From Arcobacter porcinus (GTDB taxonomy: Bacteria; Campylobacterota; Campylobacteria; Campylobacterales; Arcobacteraceae), in contig NZ_CP036246.2 in assembly GCF_004299785.2 (NCBI RefSeq), forward strand, positions 868,001 through 932,000: DNA of 64,000 bases, in the 5' to 3' direction. Positions 25,854 through 29,647 of the stretch are shown piece after piece (position 1 is the stretch's first letter; each line of letters starts with the position of its first letter). The position numbers and the translations under genes were made by a program. Below the pieces are notes generated by a model. That model ran no database searches, had not been told where the DNA came from, and saw only the letters and a program-made list of their open reading frames with translations.

Positions 25854-26096
25854 ATGTTAAGAAAAACAGTAACGATAAATGATAATTTGTATAATACTCT
25901 TATTTCATCTAAGCTTACAGAAAAATATAGCTCTTTTTCTGAATTAGTATCTACTTCTTTGGAACTACTTATAGAAAAGAATAAGAAAGAACAATATAAA
26001 AAAGATATGATAGAAGCTTCAAAAGATAGATTATATATCCAAGATATGGAAGAAATTTCAAATGATTTTAAATATATTGATTTTGAAGAAAAATAG
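25854..26096 (+). CDS. Ribbon-helix-helix antitoxin of a MazEF-type pair
   Basis: This 80-residue protein starts MLRKTVTINDNLYNTLISSK, a ribbon-helix-helix N-terminus (strand then two helices through about residue 45) that would bind operator DNA. The Lys/Glu-rich C-terminal tail (about 46-80) is the kind of flexible segment that neutralises a MazF-like toxin. The toxin gene begins right after its TAG stop. It most likely represses its own promoter. Confidence 0.82.
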   Translation: MLRKTVTINDNLYNTLISSKLTEKYSSFSELVSTSLELLIEKNKKEQYKKDMIEASKDRLYIQDMEEISNDFKYIDFEEK

Positions 26097-26429
26097 ATGA
26101 AACAATATGATATTTATTTAGCAGATTTAAATCCAATTGTGGAAAGAGAACAATCAGGCACTAGACCTGTTTTAATAATATCAAATGAATATGAAAATAT
26201 TTTAGATATTGTTACTATTATTCCTATAACTTCATTGAAAGATGGAAGAAAAATATATCCAAATGAGCTTTTATTAAAAGATGAATTAGAGAAACCTTCA
26301 ATACTTTTATGCCAACAAATTAGAACAATTTCGAAAGCTAGATTAATAAAGAAATTTACTTCAATTTCAAGTATTAAAACACAAGAAAAAATATTACAAA
26401 TACTTTGTAATAGATTTGAGAATATTTAA
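26097..26429 (+). CDS. MazF/PemK-family toxin (endoribonuclease)
   Basis: This 110-residue protein has the MazF fold signature: [27 protein letters not shown] at the N-terminus (split motif with GTRPVLI), IIPITSL in the centre, and the [15 protein letters not shown] strand. MazF toxins cut mRNA or tRNA at short sequences. The start is immediately after the antitoxin stop, as usual. Length is normal and no disruption is seen, so the pair is probably active. Its role at this place may be to stabilise the polysaccharide locus, which is inference. Confidence 0.88.
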
Positions 26430-28575: not shown

Positions 28576-29604
28576 TTAAATATTTTTTAAATGATTTGCT
28601 AGTTCTATCTCTTGTTTTAACTCTTCTAAAATAAATTCTCTCTCTTTTATTTTTACATCAAGAGCTGATATATCTGAATTTTTTTCCATTATTTTGTTTT
28701 GTAGTTTATCTATTTCATCCTCTTTTGTTAAAATCAGAGTGATTAAATCTTCAAATTCTCTATTTTTTAAAGAGATTTTATCTGATAATGAGTTGAATTT
28801 TGTTTTTTTAAGAGTAACTTTTTGAAGTAGTTCATCTAAAAGATACTCTTTTTCTGCAATAGAGTTATTGATTCTAAATAACTCTTGATTTCTAGCTTCT
28901 ATTTTAAACTCCAAAGATTTTAACTCTTGCTCTTTTACTCCTGTAATATCAATATTACTATCAAGAATTTTATATATTTTTTGTAGAGCATACTCTAATT
29001 TTAAAATATCAGCAACAAGTTTTAATCTCTCTACCATATCTTTTTTTTGCATTCGTGCATTTCTTCCAAGTTTGAAATCAAACATAGAAAAAACAGCATG
29101 AGCATGTGGAGTTGAAACTTTTGTAAATGATGAGATATCTACTTTTAAAGAGAAGTTTTCAGCTTTTGTCTCTTTTTTTTCATCTGCACTTATATACCAA
29201 TCTTCATCTTTTTTTATAATATTTTTATATGGTTTATAGTTTATCCCATCTTTTACAAAATATCCTTCATCTTTATGTATAGTAAGGTTTATTAGTTCAT
29301 GTCCACCAAATCTCTGTTTTAAATCAAAAAATAGATCAACTAAATCATTTTGTGTATGAGTATCATCAATTGTAATAATAGCTTCTTGAAAGATATTTTC
29401 TATTGCACTTTTTTGCATTCTTTGTTTGATTGTTTGTTGGTATTTATCTTTTGCTGATTCTAAGAATTTGTCATAATCATAGTAAGTTTTGAAATAGTTA
29501 AAACTACTATTATCAAAAATAGCACTATTGTGACCGTTTAATCTTTGTGTATGAATATCAGTTTGTTCATTTCTTCTTTCAACTGAAAAAGATGCTTTTC
29601 TCAT
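28576..29604 (-). CDS. MobV/Pre-like relaxase-related protein with C-terminal coiled coil
   Basis: I read this 342-residue protein as a divergent mobilisation (Mob/Pre) relaxase. The N-terminus (residues 1-60) has the RxxEQTDIHTQRLNGHNS style opening of MobV proteins. Residues 106-113 (NLTIHKDE) and 164-174 (STPHAHAVFSM) match the two halves of the MobV metal motif HxDExxPHxH, followed by GRNARMQKKD at 180, the usual conserved patch. Here the two halves are separated by about 50 residues instead of being adjacent. Residues about 225-335 form a long coiled coil. It stands alone on the chromosome with no partner mobilisation genes, and its ribosome binding site sits in an inverted repeat. Family call is from motif reading only. 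Confidence 0.6.
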   Translation of the reverse strand: MRKASFSVERRNEQTDIHTQRLNGHNSAIFDNSSFNYFKTYYDYDKFLESAKDKYQQTIKQRMQKSAIENIFQEAIITIDDTHTQNDLVDLFFDLKQRFGGHELINLTIHKDEGYFVKDGINYKPYKNIIKKDEDWYISADEKKETKAENFSLKVDISSFTKVSTPHAHAVFSMFDFKLGRNARMQKKDMVERLKLVADILKLEYALQKIYKILDSNIDITGVKEQELKSLEFKIEARNQELFRINNSIAEKEYLLDELLQKVTLKKTKFNSLSDKISLKNREFEDLITLILTKEDEIDKLQNKIMEKNSDISALDVKIKEREFILEELKQEIELANHLKNI

Positions 29605-29613
29605 GATTTTTAT

Positions 29614-29647
29614 CCCCTTTGAAGTGCTATTAGTACCTTTAAAGGGG
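29614..29647 (-). promoter_or_regulatory. Inverted repeat covering the ribosome binding site of the relaxase-like gene
   Basis: CCCCTTTGAAG (29614-29624) and CTTTAAAGGGG (29637-29647) are an 11-base inverted repeat with one mismatch, ten bases from the start codon at 29604. In the mRNA the AAAGGGG Shine-Dalgarno would be one arm and could be sequestered by CCCCTTT. A minus-strand TATAAAAT at 29650-29657 is a likely -10 box, so the repeat is at the very 5' end of the transcript. It could be an RNA hairpin, a protein operator or an oriT-like site. Confidence 0.6.

Follow-up and report, generated by a model that had tools for sequence, protein, structure and literature searches.

The window analysed here is a stretch of 64,000 nt from the Arcobacter porcinus chromosome (NCBI RefSeq assembly GCF_004299785.2, contig NZ_CP036246.2, positions 868,001 to 932,000). 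On its minus strand, an open reading frame is predicted to encode a relaxase-like protein of 342 amino acids (P0001), and a hairpin lies upstream of it. Because orthologues with dN/dS of 0.08-0.25 are present in nine other genomes, we treat the reading frame as a real gene. The features are listed below, with their basis in brackets.

28576..29604, minus strand: relaxase-like gene P0001, 342 aa (open reading frame list, orthologues, dN/dS, profile match)
29542..29553, minus strand: motif I, H18-T-Q-R21, residues 18-21 (invariant in all aligned relatives)
29263..29277, minus strand: first half of the metal motif, HKDEG, residues 110-114 (H, D, E and G invariant)
29110..29262, minus strand: family-specific insert, residues 115-165, predicted short beta strands (spacing comparison and model)
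29098..29106, minus strand: second half of the metal motif, HAH, residues 167-169 (invariant)
29035..29067, minus strand: conserved basic patch GRNARMQKKDM, residues 180-190 (alignments)
28582..28932, minus strand: helical, coiled-coil-like tail, approximately residues 225-341 (less conserved than the N-terminal domain)
29614..29647, minus strand: hairpin CCCCTTTAAAGGTACTAATAGCACTTCAAAGGGG, oriT-like and a probable operator, with its core at 29622-29637 (conserved core, plasmid homologues)

A preliminary description of this DNA had reported the reading frame, HKDE at residues 110-113, PHAH (residues 166-169), the GRNARMQKKD patch and a long coiled-coil-like tail, and all of these were found where it had placed them. 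Its inventory of motifs was correct for both halves of the metal motif but overlooked motif I (H18..R21). In alignments of relatives, residues H18, R21, H110, D112, E113, G114, H167 and H169 are invariant; the N-terminal domain holds 97 of the 113 invariant residues, and the tail is much less conserved. Four alignments (A5, A6, A10 and A11) were left out, as motif I was misplaced in them. By likeness to MobM, H18 is the proposed nucleophile.

The neighbouring genes are argF, a hemN-type radical SAM gene, nrdD, a diaminopimelate dehydrogenase gene (ddh) and a galE-type epimerase gene. The earlier remark that no partner gene is nearby holds, as these neighbours have housekeeping functions and none of the genes next to the relaxase gene is a Rep, an integrase or a second Mob gene. 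The A. porcinus copy stands in a chromosomal housekeeping context and not on a Rep-bearing plasmid, which describes its location and not its ancestry. Elsewhere in the window, a PemK/MazF-type toxin gene (25854-26429) with a small upstream partner lies within a polysaccharide locus.

TBLASTN identified homologues on small plasmids of A. butzleri (44-50% over the N-terminal domain) and on plasmids of Bacteroides, Prevotella and Riemerella, several of them annotated as mobilization proteins. A query profile built from the ten chromosomal proteins alone matched MOBV-type Mobs of Bacteroidota with an E-value of 9e-16 and with all motifs in register; among these matches, the Mob of pBFP35 is annotated as “NBU/pMV158-type,” and its plasmid is typed MOBV. 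The direct profile match between the chromosomal group and the pUB110 Mob was not significant. At the gathering cut-off of Mob_Pre (PF01076), the A. porcinus protein gives no Pfam match. A Mob_Pre search of the whole genome, which is one contig of 2.02 Mb, also returned no match, albeit with controls that matched nowhere, and the protein-level search is the better test. Sequence searches of the protein against Pfam, NCBIfam, PHROGs, PADLOC and PDB yielded coiled-coil noise at best, with no defence-family match in PADLOC, and the viral contigs searched contained only distant Bacteroides-type Mobs. Some of the Bacteroidota members score above the Pfam cut-offs for Mob_Pre or Relaxase, whereas none of the tested Campylobacterota members does.

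The H-hydrophobic-H element (H167-A-H169), H110 and the putative nucleophile H18 align with MOBV-typed relaxases in an HUH-type order. Together with the close plasmid homologues and the profile match with motifs in register, this bears out the initial label of a MobV-like relaxase, and on sequence evidence we regard P0001 as a MOBV-related relaxase outside PF01076/MOBV1. We do not file it as MOBV1 because it fails the PF01076 cut-off and lacks the contiguous MOBV motif. It shares H..R, H[KR]DEG and HAH with an unnamed MOBV-related branch in Campylobacterota, and the long insert of that branch (~50 residues or more, inside the metal motif) is present here.

The distance from the H of the first half of the metal motif to the first H of the second is 7 in the pUB110 Mob, 15-20 in Mobs of Bacteroidota and Campylobacter plasmids, and 55-80 in relatives from Arcobacteraceae and other Campylobacterota; it is 57-58 in the chromosomal copies and 57 in the A. 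porcinus protein. At a spacing of 57 versus 7, the contiguous HxDExxPHxH of MOBV1 is not present in A. porcinus. The order of H..R followed by HxDE...HxH is common to the chromosomal group and to MobM (MOBV1) and the pUB110 Mob, whereas the latter has the contiguous HxDExxPHxH with its spacing of 7. Compared with motif I of MOBV1 (HNxR), H18 and R21 are invariant in the chromosomal group and N is replaced by T or I. The metal motif had been presented as a novelty, pulled apart in this gene; that view is not supported, as the insert is a family trait. Because the gap is also conserved in plasmid relatives, the split is not peculiar to the A. porcinus gene, and judging from the spacing comparison it is ordinary for the Campylobacterota branch of plasmid relaxases.

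Two AlphaFold models built from shallow alignments have low confidence (mean pLDDT of 61 and 52). Both alignment depth and confidence make them too weak for a claim about the fold. In the predicted order, a beta strand and an alpha helix precede a second strand that ends at H110; after an insert made up of short strands come a strand starting from H167 and a helix, an arrangement that in these models fits an insert placed in a turn between two ligand-bearing strands. In a fold comparison of the low-confidence models, ferredoxin-like matches with middling Z scores were obtained; the HUH transposase 2xo6 ranked 50th (Z 5.5 over 95 residues, rmsd 3.4), and no relaxase was among the matches listed.

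In a sample of 31 congeneric genomes, 10 carry the gene (orthologues 50-93% identical) and 21 do not. The reading frame is intact in all 10 carriers, and in each the gene follows argF-hemN. On the other side, ddh is found in all eight carriers that could be checked, A. porcinus included; in two others the contig ends first. Two of these eight have a four-gene insertion that separates ddh from the relaxase gene. Judged by eye, the approximately four inserted genes (L029, 8146-11870; L030, 8477-12203) encode a permease, a flavin-binding protein, an aminotransferase and a MOSC-type protein. Genomes without the relaxase gene have unrelated genes after hemN.

The dN/dS values indicate purifying selection; they are similar to or somewhat higher than the dN/dS of the housekeeping neighbours. 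The chromosomal proteins form one clade (support 100/100), and this clade clusters with the plasmid Mobs of A. butzleri (100/99). In the argF-hemN tree, which is rooted by midpoint only, carriers fall on either side of that point; this suggests one old acquisition followed by several losses. One carrier, G011, is placed differently in the mob and argF trees, which points to some recombination, such that inheritance is not strictly vertical. The proposal that this is a domesticated orphan chromosomal relaxase is thus supported by synteny, the single clade and dN/dS.

The repeat noted upstream of the gene proved to be real, at 29614-29647, and conserved. A small palindrome with the core GTGCT..AGCAC lies upstream of every chromosomal copy; it is exact in most, with one mismatch in A. 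porcinus and in one other carrier (G023). The exact sequence GGTGCT-N(2-4)-AGCACC occurs seven times in the 31 genomes, and six of these occurrences are just upstream of the relaxase gene. Taken singly, each chromosomal hairpin surpasses shuffled sequence by only a modest margin, so the argument for the hairpin relies on conservation of the core rather than on the stability of any one sequence. In A. porcinus and G023, the 3' arm contains a probable ribosome-binding site. In plasmid-type relatives, the mob gene is preceded by a longer version (e.g., GGTGCTATGTTGCAACATAGCACC); among six such relatives, 5 of 11 pairs show compensatory changes, at a covariation score reached by 0 of 500 shuffles, and slid controls fail. 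In the plasmids, the right arm of the hairpin runs into a second repeat of the ACCYTWAAGG type. This second repeat is clear in only one chromosomal copy, that of G023 (AGCACCTTAAAGGGG), and is decayed in most; comparing the two elements, we infer that a possible nic-adjacent part is less well kept than the putative binding part.

The Mobs of Aliarcobacter plasmids (AB-1163-LD, AB-1166-LD, pABRW13 and AC-6347-LD) resemble the chromosomal gene in motifs, insert (spacing 58), coiled-coil-like tail and homologous upstream hairpin; however, they reside on small plasmids with Rep genes, the hairpin in front of them is longer and more distant from the gene (about 70-95 nt), and identity over the N-terminal domain is about 45%. 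We had considered AC-6347-LD as a plasmid that bears the site without a relaxase and rejected this, as the mob gene spans the start of the record. Bacteroidota plasmid Mobs (that of pBFP35, typed MOBV, and those of 2.7-kb plasmids typed MOBP) have H..R, HKDEG and HAH in register, and a palindrome followed by a CCYTAAAGG-type repeat lies upstream. They differ in their spacing of 15-20 and in being plasmid-borne, and several are recognised by Pfam Mob_Pre or Relaxase. We take the 2.7-kb plasmids to be pBI143-like by size and gene content.

REP-associated tyrosine transposases (RAYTs) are chromosomal, single-copy, hairpin-linked HUH-type enzymes, and the A. porcinus relaxase is likewise chromosomal, single-copy, hairpin-linked and probably of HUH type. 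It is relaxase-derived, however, whereas RAYTs derive from IS200/IS605-type transposases, and its hairpin has no dispersed copies. No dispersed copies were found in our search for them, which makes a RAYT-like spread unlikely and led us to rule out REP/RAYT-like dispersal. In pMV158, oriT hairpins and the promoter lie upstream of the mobM gene, and MobM uses a histidine to cleave oriT and also acts as a repressor of mobM (PMC5863519). The palindrome and second repeat of the plasmid relatives resemble the layout of overlapping repeats in the pMV158 oriT (PMC5863519). Chromosomal relaxases also occur in H. pylori, another member of Campylobacterota (rlx1, and the VirD2 homologues of tfs3/tfs4); those discussed in PMC3447787 are VirD2-like and adjoin T4SS islands, whereas the A. 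porcinus relaxase is a lone gene among housekeeping genes.

The gene probably encodes a domesticated plasmid relaxase that is retained under selection and still binds, and probably nicks, its hairpin. The data show that the protein is homologous to plasmid Mobs, that the gene has a fixed position and evolves under purifying selection, that the active-site signature is invariant and that a plasmid-type hairpin has been retained just upstream. The relaxase would have come from a small Arcobacteraceae plasmid, entered the hemN-ddh interval of an ancestral Aliarcobacter and been kept there under selection, mainly by vertical inheritance. By analogy with MobM at its oriT and promoters, the protein most likely still binds the upstream hairpin and represses its own gene; nicking and rejoining of the hairpin would proceed via H18, with H110, H167 and H169 holding a divalent metal. 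As regards the new transfer or defence function that had been suggested, the A. porcinus genome showed no VirB4-type ATPase and the protein no defence-family match. Seven other carriers likewise showed no VirB4, which is present in 2 of the 10. Given that most carriers lack transfer machinery, we tentatively propose that the relaxase is kept for acting in trans on related hairpins of small plasmids. It is doubtful, albeit conceivable, that it is an anti-plasmid factor of benefit to the host, binding and nicking the shared hairpin in trans and thereby silencing mob genes or destabilising incoming plasmids. Options for why hosts retain the gene are mobilisation in trans with a helper, regulation, and control of incoming plasmids with the same hairpin.

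Four other explanations can be set beside this one. A working chromosomal mobilisation module, in which the hairpin serves as a genuine oriT and chromosomal DNA, or a plasmid in trans, is transferred once a helper T4SS enters the cell, would agree with the retention of both active-site signature and hairpin and with the two carriers that have VirB4. The chromosomal relaxase rlx1 is reported, in work cited in PMC3447787, to support plasmid transfer in H. pylori, but chromosomal relaxases are dispensable for transfer of a native H. pylori plasmid (PMC3447787). Since no VirB4 was found in the other eight carriers and most chromosomal copies have only a decayed form of the plasmid site's second repeat, we consider such a module unlikely. 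If the protein were now only a hairpin-binding regulator of its own leader or of plasmid sites, with cleavage irrelevant, two observations would fit, namely that the hairpin core, a candidate binding site, is better preserved than the second repeat and that the hairpin of A. porcinus and G023 contains the probable ribosome-binding site; however, all catalytic-signature residues are invariant across 50% protein divergence, and binding alone would not obviously need them, which makes this explanation unlikely.

It is hard to credit that the gene is a decaying, functionless remnant of an integrated plasmid. Such a remnant does exist elsewhere on the same chromosome, a truncated plasmid-type mob (G000:C1:1813558), and 21 congeners lack the gene, but dN/dS of 0.08-0.25, intact frames in ten carriers and the conserved position contradict this account. 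Equally improbable is that the protein is not a relaxase and that its histidine motifs are coincidental. Library and PDB matches no better than coiled-coil noise would fit that idea, as would structure models giving only common ferredoxin-like matches; against it stand the profile match (E 9e-16, all motifs in register), homologues that include annotated plasmid mobilization proteins, and Bacteroidota relatives above the Pfam Mob_Pre or Relaxase cut-offs, and the order beta-alpha-beta(H110)-insert-beta(HAH)-alpha of the low-confidence model fits a relaxase.

A relaxase gene is usually taken as a sign of mobile DNA. The main find here is a pair of relaxase and hairpin that is resident and selected in chromosomes mostly devoid of transfer machinery. 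In part of a genus with food-borne species among its members, a relaxase is resident and under selection together with an oriT-like hairpin, which offers a clean setting in which to ask how a relaxase can serve its host. The locus also exposes a relaxase branch in Campylobacterota that Pfam, NCBIfam and PHROGs do not recognise, and as a consequence small Aliarcobacter plasmids that have both a relaxase and an oriT-like hairpin with covariation are classed as non-mobilizable.

Three plasmids of A. butzleri and A. cryaerophilus (L019, L023 and L132) are ~5 kb in length and have a GGDEF-domain gene beside rep and mob; they are typed non-mobilizable despite the relaxase and the oriT-like hairpin. 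A region that looks like an integrated plasmid lies on a large contig of G201, a genome from a different family in the order (L081, 137-2652); here a mob belonging to the same branch is found next to a hairpin, a Rep-like gene and a transposase. In A. porcinus itself, the truncated mob at G000:C1:1813558 is preceded by a second hairpin, plasmid-type and intact. Around it lies an IS-rich resistance island (L036, 2813-11365; G000:C1 about 1807800-1816400) with several transposases and two aminoglycoside-type nucleotidyltransferase genes (AadA_C and KNTase_C domains), and the hairpin within this island is a possible second target in the cell.
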